A DNA stretch of 35,567 nt, from the NCBI GenBank assembly GCA_016930815.1, contig JAFGFZ010000072.1, positions 1-35,567 of the forward strand, written 5' to 3'. Origin of the DNA: Pirellulales bacterium. GTDB lineage: Bacteria > Planctomycetota > Planctomycetia > Pirellulales > Lacipirellulaceae. Shown here piece by piece: positions 3,918-18,886 of this stretch (the stretch's first letter is position 1; each line of letters starts with the position of its first letter). The notes below the pieces were generated by a model that made no database searches, was not told where the DNA came from, and saw only the letters and a program-made list of their open reading frames with translations. Made by a program: the position numbers and the translations under genes.

Positions 3918-4766
3918 ATGCATAGGCACGTATGGAAACATCTTTCGTACAAGGCCCGCAAGCTGTCCAGAATGGCGACGATGTCGATGTTCGGGCCGTT
4001 GTGTGCCCGACTGCGGCCAGCCAATGTTGCGATGTTTCACGTCGGACGGAGTGGCAGTACTGTTTTGGGCAACCTGATTGATCAGCACTCGAAGGTATTC
4101 TGGGACAGCGAGGTATTTTTGAAGTACCTTGAACGCCGACAACGTCGTGGCCTCACACTCGGAGAAACGGCTGCGGCTTCAGATGCTGAAAAACTGCTGC
4201 GAAGCCGAATGCGCCTGGCAGGTGGAATCATTTATGGCTGTGAGATCAAGTTCTTTCACTTACATCTCCTTAATTTGGAAGTATCGGCTTTCGTCGACAA
4301 GCTTGAAGACTTTGGATTTAGCCACTTCGTCGTTCTTCGCCGTAGAAACCTGCTTCGAGTGGTTGTATCAAGTGTCGTAGCACATCATCGCTCACAGTTC
4401 CATTCCAGACTAGGTGAACGAGCTGTACTCACCCAGATATGCCTGAACGTCGATTCTGTGAGCATCGACAATGACCAAAAACCTTTGCTCGCGTTTTTGG
4501 AAGACTATCAGGCATCATTCGACGCGCTCGATCAACGACTTTCCGGATTGCATAGTCTGATCCTGACCTACGAAGAGGATGTACTCAAAGATCCAATGGT
4601 GGCGTATGGTCGCCTGTGTCAGTTCCTGGCGTTGCAAGAGCAGAAGCCCATAGTCCGGTTTGGCAGAACCACTCCCTTCGCGCTACGCGACATCCTATCG
4701 AACTTTTCTGAAGTCGAGGCGCGGTTACGGGATACACCTTTTGAGTGGATGACGAAAGATGATTAG
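3918..4766 (+). CDS. Sulfotransferase family protein
   Basis: Probable PAPS-dependent sulfotransferase that would add sulfate to a carbohydrate, plausibly the EPS made by this locus. The 282-residue protein has a 5'-phosphosulfate-binding loop near the N-terminus, MFHVGRSGSTVLGNLIDQHS (after a short basic leader). A 3'-phosphate-binding segment follows further on, FSHFVVLRRRNLLRVVVSSV. Between them is FWDSEVFLKYLE, as in bacterial carbohydrate sulfotransferases. The C-terminal TPFALRDILSNFSEVEARL resembles the end of the sulfotransferase fold, where the last helix closes on PAPS. Start ATG 3918 follows GGGACC; a TTG lies two codons earlier. Its last 4 bases overlap the convergent GNAT gene. 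The donor family is well supported; the acceptor is inference from context. Confidence 0.8.
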   Translation: MHRHVWKHLSYKARKLSRMATMSMFGPLCARLRPANVAMFHVGRSGSTVLGNLIDQHSKVFWDSEVFLKYLERRQRRGLTLGETAAASDAEKLLRSRMRLAGGIIYGCEIKFFHLHLLNLEVSAFVDKLEDFGFSHFVVLRRRNLLRVVVSSVVAHHRSQFHSRLGERAVLTQICLNVDSVSIDNDQKPLLAFLEDYQASFDALDQRLSGLHSLILTYEEDVLKDPMVAYGRLCQFLALQEQKPIVRFGRTTPFALRDILSNFSEVEARLRDTPFEWMTKDD

Positions 4767-5836
4767 CGAAACATCCAGCGTTGGCGTAAAGGCCGACTCC
4801 GCTGGGCTGTCCACCGGATCGGGATACCGAGAATTGGCACTCGGGAGAGCCCACGAGCACAAGAACAAATCTGGCTCAGCACGCGCGTTTTGTGGTGGAC
4901 CAGGACATTACCCTCCGCCACGTTCGTCGCATCTGACATCAGAGACATCTTGTATGGCTCGCAACCCTTGCCGAGGTCGATGCGCTGGATTCCCTGCGAA
5001 CTGGCTGTTTTGGCTATTTCCACGAGGCAAATCATTCCGGGGCTATAACGAGCCAGATCCGGATTATACGCGGGATACCAGTAGTGCAACACATTCCGTG
5101 ACCGCATGCCAAAATGTACGGCGGCCAGCTGATCTCCGAAGTAGAGGGCTGAAGGGACGCCGGAGAATGCCTCATCTTGGAAATCGCGGATTTGCTCCAG
5201 TAAGTTAACCGCCCACGGAAACGTAAACACGTTCATAAGTTTTTCACGCTCGTATTGCGCGGTTTTCCACTGGATAAGTTGTTGAAATAGACCGGAGTCC
5301 GCTGCATGAAACTCGAACCGTACAGGGCCGACACAACGCTCGGCCGCCCGCACATTGCGGCGGATACTAGAGAATCTTTCTGGGCCTCCGCGACGGAGAT
5401 TGTCCTTATACGCCTCGAATCCACCAGACAGATCGATAAAGGGTGAGGGGACGACAGTTCTATGATAAGAGCAAAACGGTTGCTGATCCGCCAGGAGATG
5501 GTCGAACTGCCAGGCGCCAAGTCCGCAGCCCCGGATCAACTCTTCGGCATGGAATGGCATTTCGGGCGTGGTGACCACGCCTTGGAAATCCGAGAGCGGA
5601 GTACCCACAGGCCGTCCTATGTTCCACCGGTCACGCTGAAATGGAAAAAAACCAACAATCTGATCATCCATTTCTAGAATGCCTACGGCAACGTCACTTC
5701 GTACGGCAGCCACGAATTGGACGAACTCTGGACAAAAATAGGGGCTGTCCAGTTGCGGATTGGCACGCTGCAACTGCGACCAGCAAGCAACGTGCTGGCT
5801 TGTCAATTGATCGCCGGGAATGACGGTGATTCTCAT
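4763..5836 (-). CDS. GNAT/FemAB-like acyltransferase (module gene 2)
   Basis: The 357-residue protein resembles the Acetyltransf_6 / BioF2-like / CelD group of double-GNAT proteins found in polysaccharide loci. The N-terminal half has DSPYFCPEFVQFVAAVR and LSDFQGVV. The middle has the family signature FSSIRRNVRAAER, a basic helix after PFIDLSGGFEAY. The C-terminal half has a second GNAT-like core with AAVHFGMRSRNVLHYWYPAYN, SPGMICLVEIAK and RIDLGKGCEPYKMSL, which match the conserved H-x-G and YK positions. Such proteins probably transfer acyl or aminoacyl groups to envelope polymers; the substrate here is unknown. It starts 8 bases after the stop of the upstream GNAT gene (5845-6888), so the two are surely co-transcribed. 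A truncated homologue of residues about 118-149 lies at 16911-17096. Confidence 0.8.
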   Translation of the reverse strand: MRITVIPGDQLTSQHVACWSQLQRANPQLDSPYFCPEFVQFVAAVRSDVAVGILEMDDQIVGFFPFQRDRWNIGRPVGTPLSDFQGVVTTPEMPFHAEELIRGCGLGAWQFDHLLADQQPFCSYHRTVVPSPFIDLSGGFEAYKDNLRRGGPERFSSIRRNVRAAERCVGPVRFEFHAADSGLFQQLIQWKTAQYEREKLMNVFTFPWAVNLLEQIRDFQDEAFSGVPSALYFGDQLAAVHFGMRSRNVLHYWYPAYNPDLARYSPGMICLVEIAKTASSQGIQRIDLGKGCEPYKMSLMSDATNVAEGNVLVHHKTRVLSQICSCARGLSRVPILGIPIRWTAQRSRPLRQRWMFR

Positions 5837-5844
5837 GGCCAGAA

Positions 5845-6888
5845 TTATGTTCCCTTCTGATACAGCTCGACATCCTTGGTTTCGGACCGGTGATTGCCTT
5901 CCTGTCTGGAATAGAGTCCGTTACGGCACTTCTCGGCCCTCCCTCGGGCGGCTTTGTTTCTTGTGACCTCAATTCGCTGCCGCCGATACCGTAGCATATT
6001 TCCCATCAGATGTTTCATTGTGCTGAAGGCGTATGCTTCGATGCGATATTGCGTCATCAACCGTCCTCCCCACATTGTCTTCGCATGAACAACCGTCTCT
6101 GTGTTGGCGCCACAAGAGTTGTAGCCGACTGCGTCCGCTTCCTGGAGGTCATTCATCATATAAGCGATTAATAGTTGTGTCGCGCCGGAATGCAAATAGG
6201 TGTCAATCGTGCCCGCCATCCAATCGCACGCGCGTCCGCTCGGTCGATGGAGCACAATTCGAGCCGTGGCTGGTTCCCCGTTTGGCGCGTAACAGACATA
6301 GACACGGAACGCGTCTGGCCCAAGCAAGTCGTGCGCCATCTCCAAGCCACCTAGCGTTATCCCATAGGAAAAATTTTTCCGCTTCTCGGAACCCGCCAGG
6401 CAGGCAAAGGCATGTCTCAAATTATCCGTGCGTATGCAAGTGAATCCCCCCCGGCGAGCCTTGTTGGCATGCTGTCGGACGACTCGATCCGTCTGGCCAA
6501 GTTCGAAAGGAAAGTCGATAAAGTCAGTAAATCGTGGCAGGACATGGAACCACGACCAAGCCCAGGGACGCGGATCCGTTATCGCCGGAGAGAACGTCAG
6601 CCCACCTCGAATTCCATGAGCAATGATGTCGTCGGCGAACAAACTTCCCAGATCGAGCCATTCTCTCTGCATAAGGCCGATCGTCTCGGTTTCAGTTGGC
6701 ATGAAATACAACGGCAGATGGGGCTGATAAGGTGGCAACATCAGCCGCCCCTTGCGATTACGATAGCACACGACCCGCAATACCGGTCCCTTCATCCCTT
6801 CAGGAGCGTACTCGAAGCGGACCGGCTCGACCTTCCAATAGAGCCCTGTGAATGTTTGCCATTGAGATGTACTTAATGCGGTATCCAT
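5845..6888 (-). CDS. GNAT/FemAB-like protein (module gene 1, copy A)
   Basis: This 347-residue protein is a close paralogue of the product of 15970-16914; by eye about two thirds of positions agree over some 300 residues. Shared blocks include RNRKGRLMLPPYQPHLPL, TFSPAITDPRPWAWSWF, PRFTDFIDFPF and GYNSCGANTETVVHAKTMWG. The stretch GEPATARIVLHRPSG plus HSGATQLLI resembles the second GNAT half of FemAB-type proteins. The function is probably acyl or aminoacyl transfer onto a polysaccharide or lipid precursor; this is inference. I chose ATG 6888 because the next residues line up with the paralogue start; an ATG at 6939 would add 17 residues absent from the paralogue. This copy has a basic C-terminal extension of about 35 residues that the other lacks. 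A consensus TTGACA lies upstream on the minus strand at 6982-6977, without a good -10. Confidence 0.75.
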   Translation of the reverse strand: MDTALSTSQWQTFTGLYWKVEPVRFEYAPEGMKGPVLRVVCYRNRKGRLMLPPYQPHLPLYFMPTETETIGLMQREWLDLGSLFADDIIAHGIRGGLTFSPAITDPRPWAWSWFHVLPRFTDFIDFPFELGQTDRVVRQHANKARRGGFTCIRTDNLRHAFACLAGSEKRKNFSYGITLGGLEMAHDLLGPDAFRVYVCYAPNGEPATARIVLHRPSGRACDWMAGTIDTYLHSGATQLLIAYMMNDLQEADAVGYNSCGANTETVVHAKTMWGGRLMTQYRIEAYAFSTMKHLMGNMLRYRRQRIEVTRNKAARGRAEKCRNGLYSRQEGNHRSETKDVELYQKGT

Positions 6889-7126
6889 ATCTGGTGCCCC
6901 TTCTAGTTCACTTTTTTCGTGTTGTTCATATGAAATCATGTCTATAAACCTTCATGCTGACCACCAGCACCATGCGTGTCAAGAAAATATAAGATTAGAC
7001 CGCCGACTGCGCAGCTACCGCTAGAAATCATCCCGATCCGCAGAACTGGGTTGACGTTGCTGTCGCACAGTACATTACAACCAAACAAATGCCTTCACTT
7101 CTTGCATGAAAGACTACCACAGATGG

Positions 7127-15969: not shown

Positions 15970-16914
15970 TTGGACTCCACATTGGCTACACCCGAATGGC
16001 AGACATTTACAGAACACTACTGGCCGGTCAAGGCGGTACCTTTCGAATACGCGCCGCGTGGACCGAATGGGCCGATGCTTCGAGTGGTGTGTTACCTCAA
16101 CCGAAAGGGACGGCTGGTCCTGCCGCCCTATCAGCCACATCTACCTCTGGAATTTAAGCCGACTCCCACGGATGCGCCCTATCGCCTTCAACGGCAGTGG
16201 CTGGAGATTGCCCGGCTCTTCGTGGATGACATGATCTCGTACGGCATTCGGGGGGAAATGACGTTCTCACCGGTCGTAACAGATCCCCGGCCGTGGCTTT
16301 GGTCCTGGTTCCGCGTCTCGCCGCGATTCACCGATTTCATCAACTTTCCTTTTGCCATCGACGATACGGACTACCGTGTTCAACAGTTGGCCAACAAGGC
16401 GCAACAAGCGGGTTTTGTCTGCCGGATTGTCAGTCATCTCCCGGATGTGATGGTCTGTCTGAGGGGATCAGAGCAGAGGAGGGGATTGACTCATGCCATG
16501 ACGCTACAGGGCCTGGAAATGGCTCGTGAACTGCTGGGGCCGGAAGCCTTTCGCGCTTATGTATGCTACGCACCTGGCGGCGAGCCGGCCACAGGGCGGA
16601 TCGTGTTGCACCGGCCTGGAGGGCGAGCGTGCGACTGGCTGGCCGGAACGGTTGAGAAGCACCTGCACTCTGGCGCCACCCAGTTACTGATCTGGCACAT
16701 GTTCAATGATTTGCAAGAAGCCACAGCGATCGGCTACAACTCCTGCGGCGCCGATCGGAAAACAGTCGCTCACGCGAAGACAATGTGGGGCGGCCGCTTG
16801 ATGACCCAGTACAACGTCCGGGCATACGACTTCCCCTGCATGAAACATCAATTGGGCAACATGCTGCAGTACTTGAAGCGGCAAGCAGCCGTGCGAAAGG
16901 TGAAAAAACGATGA
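15970..16914 (+). CDS. GNAT/FemAB-like protein (module gene 1, copy B)
   Basis: This 314-residue paralogue of the product of 5845-6888 lies in the opposite orientation. Identical blocks include LPPYQPHLPL, DPRPW, SWF, PRFTDFI, IRG and AKTMWGGRLMTQY. The C-terminal half has the FemAB/GNAT-like features GEPATGRIVLHRPGGRACDW and HSGATQLLI. It lacks the C-terminal extension of copy A. The start is a TTG at 15970: GGGAG lies 7-8 bases upstream, the residues MDSTLA match the copy A start, and the next in-frame ATG is far inside the domain. It begins 27 bases after the GT2 stop, so it is likely in the same transcript. Retention of both copies with different ends suggests different acceptors, but that is inference. 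Confidence 0.75.
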   Translation: MDSTLATPEWQTFTEHYWPVKAVPFEYAPRGPNGPMLRVVCYLNRKGRLVLPPYQPHLPLEFKPTPTDAPYRLQRQWLEIARLFVDDMISYGIRGEMTFSPVVTDPRPWLWSWFRVSPRFTDFINFPFAIDDTDYRVQQLANKAQQAGFVCRIVSHLPDVMVCLRGSEQRRGLTHAMTLQGLEMARELLGPEAFRAYVCYAPGGEPATGRIVLHRPGGRACDWLAGTVEKHLHSGATQLLIWHMFNDLQEATAIGYNSCGADRKTVAHAKTMWGGRLMTQYNVRAYDFPCMKHQLGNMLQYLKRQAAVRKVKKR

Positions 16915-17096
16915 AAGCCGCCATGGTTCCCGCGGGCCACTCGATGGCAGAGGGACAACCCTCCTGCCGTTATCATCAGCCAGTGGATTCCACCCTTTTC
17001 CTGGAGTTGTCGATCGGATTCGAGAAGTACCAACGGGATCTTGAACTAACCGGCATTTCAAACACGATCCCCAGGAGGAATCCATGGCAGCGGTAA
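16911..17096 (+). pseudogene. Fragment of a GNAT/FemAB-like gene (module gene 2, copy B)
   Basis: A 61-codon frame starting in an ATGA overlap with copy B. Its residues about 15-50 (GQPSCRYHQPVDSTLFLELS, then IGFEKYQRDLELTG) line up with residues about 118-149 of the GNAT protein at 4763-5836, which reads QQPFCSYHRTVVPSPFIDLS then GGFEAYKDNLRRGG. Gene order relative to module gene 1 is also the same. About 117 N-terminal and 200 C-terminal residues are missing, so this is best read as the remnant of a deletion. The frame runs 13 bases into the next glycosyltransferase gene and contains its ribosome binding site. Alternatively the fragment may still be translated to couple the neighbours. Confidence 0.65.
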
Positions 17097-18886
17097 CTGT
17101 CTTCATGCCTGTCTACAATGCCCTTCCGTACCTGCCGGAAGCGGTCGAATCGATCTGCCGGCAGACATTGGAGGACTGGGTCTTCTTGATCATTGACGAT
17201 GGATCGACAGACGGATCGACCGAGTATCTGCAGCAGCTCAACGATCTGCGAATCCGCGTCCTGCGTCAGCCGCACCAGGGACCCGCGGCTGCTTCCCAAT
17301 GGGCTTTAGAGCTCTGCCAGAGCGAGTTGATCGCTCGCATGGATGCCGACGATATCGCCCATCCCACGCGGCTGGAGGAGCAACTGAGATTTCTGGACGA
17401 ACATCGCGAGGTCGGGTTGCTGGGAACGCAGATCAGGCCGATTGGCAGCAAGCGGGCTGGAAGGCCGTCCTCGCTGCCCACGGACCATGCGACGATCTTT
17501 GCCGACCTGATTCGAGGTCGGCACGCGATATGTAATCCAACGGTGATGTGCCGTGCGTCGCGACTCCGAGAGGCAGGTGGCTACCAGGCAGACGGTGTTC
17601 TGGAAGATTGGTCCATGTTCCTGAGCATGGGCGAAAAGGCACATCTTGCGAACCTGGATCGGGTTCTTCTTTCTTATCGTATCCATTCGGGTGCCACCAA
17701 TAACCGGCACATGGCAGAGTTACGCACGCGAATCGCTTTCGCCTGCGACCGTGCCCGGCGAAGGCAAACAAGGGTACCGCCGATCAACTATGATGAATTT
17801 CTTGCTGCCCGCCGGTCGGCGCCACTCTGGAGCCGAATCGTTCACATTCTGGAAGGTTATGCCATGACAGAGTACCGCCTCGCCCAAGCTGAGTACCTCG
17901 GTGAGCATCGATTGCGGGGCTATATTCGCCTTGCCTGGGCGGCTTTCTGCTCGCCTCCATTGACGTTCCAGCGGATTTTCCGTGTGGCACGCAAGCGACT
18001 GATTGCCCCCCGCCGGGATCAGTACCGGACTTCTGGCTCCCGGGAACCGGGCGAGGTGCCCATCCAGGCAACCGGTATGAAGTGGCCCCCCAAATATGAT
18101 CTCTTCGGTGTACAAATTAGTGCGACAAACTACGACGAGGTGACAGCTAGGATCTTCCAGGCGATTGGCCAACAGATCCCTGCAATTGTCTCGCTCCAGG
18201 CCGTTCATGCCGTCATGACAGCCAGTGGTGATCCTGCACTCCGCAATGCAGTCAATACATTCCAGATCGTGGCGCCGGATGGCCAGCCGGTCCGCTGGGC
18301 GATGAACCTATTGCATGGTTCTGGATTACGCGAGCGTGTCTATGGCCCCGAACTAATGCTGCGTATCTGCCGCCGCGCTGCCGACGAAGGTGTCCCGGTC
18401 TACCTGTATGGAAGCTCGTTCGAGGTGCTCGGCGCCTTGCGGGCAAATCTGACTGCCAAGTATCCAGCGTTGATCATCGCTGGCGCCGAATCACCACCCT
18501 TCCGAGCTCTTACAGTCCAGGAGGAGCAAGACGCCGCTGGACGAATCAATCGAAGCGGCGCGGGCATTGTTTTTATAGGCTTGGGAGCCCCGAAGCAAGA
18601 CTTGTTCGCCCATCGGATCCGTGGCTACCTCCAGGCCGTCCAGATATGTGTGGGGGCAGCGTTCGATTTTCATGCGGGATCTAAAAAGATGGCTCCAGTT
18701 TGGATGCAGCGAAACGGCTTGGAGTGGCTCTTTCGCCTGTGCATGGAGCCTCGGCGATTGTGGTCCAGGTATCTCGTCACCAATAGCATGTTTCTAGTGA
18801 AACTGACTGCAGCGCTAGTACGCCGCGCCGCCTGTCGCCATGGCAATAAACGCCAGGCAACCCATTCACCTCCGGATCCGACGTGA
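17084..18886 (+). CDS. Fused GT2 and WecG/TagA/CpsF-type glycosyltransferase
   Basis: A 600-residue protein with two complete glycosyltransferase domains. Residues 1-230 are family 2: VFMPVYNALPYLPEAVESIC, LIIDDGSTDGSTEYL, and the metal motif ARMDADDIAHP (86-90). About 231-334 form a helical and basic linker. Residues 335-575 are a GT26 (WecG/TagA/CpsF) domain: FGVQISATNYDEV, QAVHAVMTA, the catalytic-type VAPDGQPVRWA (Asp399), IVFIGLGAPKQDLFAH, and VGAAFDFHAGSKKMAP. TagA/WecG enzymes add ManNAc-type sugars to undecaprenyl-linked acceptors. The two domains are usually separate proteins, so this fusion could add two consecutive sugars. AGGAGG (17073-17078) lies 5 bases before ATG 17084, one of the strongest ribosome sites in the window. 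Confidence 0.9.
   Translation: MAAVTVFMPVYNALPYLPEAVESICRQTLEDWVFLIIDDGSTDGSTEYLQQLNDLRIRVLRQPHQGPAAASQWALELCQSELIARMDADDIAHPTRLEEQLRFLDEHREVGLLGTQIRPIGSKRAGRPSSLPTDHATIFADLIRGRHAICNPTVMCRASRLREAGGYQADGVLEDWSMFLSMGEKAHLANLDRVLLSYRIHSGATNNRHMAELRTRIAFACDRARRRQTRVPPINYDEFLAARRSAPLWSRIVHILEGYAMTEYRLAQAEYLGEHRLRGYIRLAWAAFCSPPLTFQRIFRVARKRLIAPRRDQYRTSGSREPGEVPIQATGMKWPPKYDLFGVQISATNYDEVTARIFQAIGQQIPAIVSLQAVHAVMTASGDPALRNAVNTFQIVAPDGQPVRWAMNLLHGSGLRERVYGPELMLRICRRAADEGVPVYLYGSSFEVLGALRANLTAKYPALIIAGAESPPFRALTVQEEQDAAGRINRSGAGIVFIGLGAPKQDLFAHRIRGYLQAVQICVGAAFDFHAGSKKMAPVWMQRNGLEWLFRLCMEPRRLWSRYLVTNSMFLVKLTAALVRRAACRHGNKRQATHSPPDPT

Follow-up and report, generated by a model that had tools for sequence, protein, structure and literature searches.

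A 61-codon frame in a planctomycete exopolysaccharide cluster as the likely remnant of a second FemAB/GNAT-type transferase gene

The closest described systems are the Acetyltransf_6 (PF13480)/FemABX-fold transferases of exopolysaccharide clusters, the relics left when duplicated bacterial genes decay by deletion, and overlapping genes whose translation is coupled. A literature search returned nothing specific to the case described here. The locus lies in a window of 35,567 nucleotides, the whole stretch of DNA analysed, from a Pirellulales bacterium (contig JAFGFZ010000072.1). Its neighbours form an exopolysaccharide cluster, with genes for a Wzz-like protein, a tyrosine kinase, a polysaccharide deacetylase, a probable flippase, a Wzy-type ligase, a GT2 glycosyltransferase and an undecaprenyl-phosphate sugar transferase. 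Within this cluster, a short open frame at 16911–17096 (forward strand) is very probably a decayed relic of a second FemAB/GNAT-type transferase gene, the bulk of which was removed by deletion.

The frame begins with ATG at 16911, ends with TAA at 17094–17096 and encodes 61 amino acids. The intact gene to which it was compared, copy A, occupies 4763–5836 on the reverse strand and encodes a 357-residue Acetyltransf_6 protein (PF13480 match at residues 156–296, E 7.7e-37, 127 bits). The 61-residue product itself has no Pfam or NCBIfam match and stays below the PF13480 gathering score. The original prediction, made by inspection of the sequence, had aligned about 33 residues of the frame with copy A residues 118–149. 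The match proved significant and its limits slightly too narrow: fragment residues 10–48 align without gaps to copy A residues 113–151, with 17/39 positions identical (44%) and 25/39 similar (pairwise BLASTP, E 2e-9). The alignment reached a Smith-Waterman score of 86, whereas shuffled sequences gave 26.7 ± 4.3 (n = 5000, maximum 55) and the other frames of the remnant DNA 26–29 against the same protein. A search of the entire 5.55-Mb assembly with the product returned the copy A gene as the sole credible non-self match (E 3.8e-5), and the one further match was at chance level. A genome-scale search with the copy A protein (E 4.4e-4), together with BLASTP, places the retained middle segment at 16935–17081 (forward strand), equivalent to copy A residues 112–161.

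A profile of the relatives' GNATs that omitted copy A gave the fragment a weak score, which points to a relation specifically with copy A. The two also pair in a tree (support 90/92), a tentative placement for so short a fragment. Over the fragment's segment, copy A is 23–50% identical to other GNATs. The 44% identity between fragment and copy A is no higher, so a recent duplication cannot be called from identity alone.

The frame directly follows a gene, here termed gene 1 (copy B, 15970–16914, forward strand), which is 63% identical across 312 residues to a gene at 5845–6939 on the reverse strand (copy A of gene 1). The two are paralogues, and when all proteins of the window were compared with one another, no second such pair emerged. 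Because copy A of gene 1 immediately precedes the intact GNAT gene, the fragment occupies the place of copy B's missing GNAT, in agreement with the proposal that it holds the same relative position in a duplicated module. The accompanying description of a second FemAB/GNAT-like gene after its paralogous partner applies in part: the partner is a paralogue of 5845–6939, but no homology between gene 1 and the GNAT gene was detected (hhalign probability 0.1). Gene 1 gave no Pfam or NCBIfam match above cut-off, and a sub-threshold Acetyltransf_6 score was seen in its copy B only; it is assigned to a rare FemAB/GNAT-like family. The family occurs in 3 of 398 genomes of the class, the present one included, and in two further named contigs found by profile scan. 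A two-sequence profile gave no match in that scan; a three-sequence profile retrieved Planctomyces sp. NAT128 and Planctomycetaceae HKST-UBA56. Gene 1 was found in few planctomycetes, and wherever its neighbourhood is intact it adjoins a GNAT gene, except for one distant homologue. This fourth and most distant homologue, in genome G414, sits close to one end of a short contig, where no such neighbour is seen.

An undeleted version of the junction was found in three relatives: genome G086 (L047), Planctomyces sp. NAT128 (L056) and Planctomycetaceae HKST-UBA56 (L057). In each, an intact Acetyltransf_6 gene stands immediately after the gene 1 homologue, with a GT2 gene next in line. A WecG gene comes after GT2 in the first two, and the contig of the third stops inside the GT2 gene. 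The order in the window is gene 1, fragment and a GT2-WecG fused glycosyltransferase (17084–18886, forward strand, 600 amino acids, PF00535 and PF03808), that is, the order of the relatives with the GNAT gene cut to 61 codons. The intact gene at this place supports the proposal that a deletion made the junction between copy B of gene 1 and the fused glycosyltransferase. The GNATs that follow gene 1 in the relatives are positional equivalents, and the tree does not place them clearly as orthologues of copy A. It also counts against the remnant reading that no intermediate stage with the same copy of gene 1 was found in a relative.

The segment that remains is the middle of the protein. The fold predicted for copy A (mean pLDDT 78.5) most resembles that of the tandem-GNAT transferase FemX from Weissella, and the retained segment corresponds to the bridge between its two halves. 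Both the 5' and the 3' parts of the gene had been thought lost. This holds for the 3' half, since homology stops at residue 161 and the acetyl-CoA binding half (copy A residues about 172–300) is absent. As the catalytic GNAT half is missing, we infer loss of function: the product could not be an active acyltransferase. At the 5' end the proposal is probably not fully correct. Fragment residues 1–8 (MKAAMVPA, 16911–16934, forward strand) are similar to MRITVIPG, with which the intact copy begins, at a score of 11, equalled by 0.4% of random N-termini of the same composition (p 0.004). Among 162 gene starts, four scored equally high, and these include starts of GNAT genes. The eight-residue match is suggestive, and the start of the lost gene was probably kept; this would point to a deletion within the gene that kept the frame and left the start codon in place. 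Near the other end, the AGG AGG AAT codons of the fragment may be the counterpart of Arg-Arg-Asn (159–161) in copy A, or else the next gene's native ribosome-binding site; three residues are too few to tell which.

These features are consistent with the following course of events. The region has a two-gene unit, gene 1 followed by GNAT, in two copies: copy A is still complete at 6939–4763 (minus strand), and copy B kept gene 1 but lost most of its GNAT. An in-frame deletion of about 103 codons within the copy B GNAT, and a second deletion reaching from about codon 161 to just ahead of the start of the GT2-WecG gene, would together yield the observed frame; their number and order are our reconstruction. 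Deletions that stayed in frame plausibly survived because they let ribosomes pass on into a part of the cluster that is essential. Nucleotide identity between fragment and copy A is 56, 67 and 36% at codon positions 1, 2 and 3, and the excess of changes at position 3 (p 0.008) indicates that most of the divergence accrued under coding constraint, before the deletions.

The remnant is closely fitted between its neighbours. Its ATG, preceded by an AAGGTGA motif, shares the sequence ATGA with the stop codon of gene 1, and its own stop lies 10 nt beyond the ATG of the glycosyltransferase gene. AGGAGG at 17073–17078 (forward strand), 5 nt ahead of that ATG at 17084, bears out the prediction that the fragment contains the ribosome-binding site of the next gene. 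From the overlap and the position of the stop, the remnant is probably still translated. The geometry matches that of a coupled operon, from which coupling is predicted. Neither a promoter-like site nor a forward-strand terminator-like site was found in the region. The remnant plausibly persists as a joint that carries ribosomes from gene 1 into the glycosyltransferase gene. It is a further step to suppose that selection has kept it as a translated coupler whose AGG AGG codons became, or merged with, the next ribosome-binding site. We consider this unlikely; if true, a dead enzyme gene would have been recycled as a regulatory joint.

It is less probable still that the frame encodes a small functional protein of GNAT origin, such as one acting on the intact copy as a dominant-negative or regulatory partner. 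The open frame, its start signal and the coding-like divergence by codon position would all suit such a protein. However, a frame that began to decay recently should still be open: with 10% neutral substitutions and no indels, 61% of simulated copies keep theirs, and openness alone is no proof of present function. The segment is moreover a linker between two domains, and its fold model is partly of low confidence. Nor does the product have a counterpart in about 400 genomes of the class. A conserved stand-alone family of 61 residues, which would have contradicted the remnant reading, was found neither in the class (398 genomes) nor among the 60 nearest relatives. Matches to the product at E ≤ 0.01 occurred in 4 of the 398 genomes, one being its own, and the matches in the other three each contain a stop codon. 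The search for such a family thus yielded chance matches only, for example L024, which has an internal stop. Taken together, we regard a functional small protein as very improbable.

An assembly artefact, with a contig collapsed or misjoined across two GNAT copies, is comparably doubtful. The genome is a draft, 89% complete and in 528 contigs, which makes such errors conceivable. However, with 56% of residues different from copy A, the fragment is no misplaced piece of it, and both the frame and the overlaps with the two neighbours are clean. That the frame is open by chance and resembles a GNAT by accident is the least credible reading of all, since, although the homology spans only about 39–49 residues and a profile of other GNATs without copy A barely recognizes the fragment, the genome-wide E-value, the shuffle test and the location of the match at the predicted neighbour of a duplicated gene contradict it.

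The locus also has a wider history of change. In same-family relatives the equivalent place has neither gene 1 nor GNAT, which counts against the remnant reading, and their clusters (L065, L066, L068 and L069) carry GT2 and WecG/TagA/CpsF as separate genes, with an NAD-dependent epimerase-like gene (named by sequence) between them. These differences suggest that the locus gained the gene 1-GNAT unit, or that the relatives lost it, and that loss of the second GNAT and fusion of the glycosyltransferases came later. Three diverged Acetyltransf_6 genes were observed in each of three related clusters (L047:5215–9845, L049:6205–10395 and L056:275–4896), so multiplication of such transferases appears common here. 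The remnant records that one of two copies of an acyltransferase gene was lost from a planctomycete exopolysaccharide cluster. With the fused glycosyltransferase at the same locus, it speaks for a history of gene gain and loss. It also illustrates clearly how a relic can go on bearing its neighbour's translation start signal, although its general significance is small.

Compared with the Acetyltransf_6/FemABX-fold transferases of exopolysaccharide clusters, copy A shares both the domain and the FemX-like predicted fold. The remnant retains the middle segment of such a protein and lacks the N-terminal body and all but the first few residues of PF13480, and is not a working member. Its resemblance to translational coupling by overlapping genes, in the ATGA overlap with gene 1 and a stop just past the next start, is one of geometry alone. 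The closest likeness is with the deletional-decay remnants of duplicated bacterial genes: a short open relic of a paralogue, at its original operon position, with intact equivalents in relatives. It differs from these in nothing essential; that it overlaps the ribosome-binding site of the next gene is a local detail. The case is gene decay of an ordinary kind, and its small peculiarity is that the relic holds this site.
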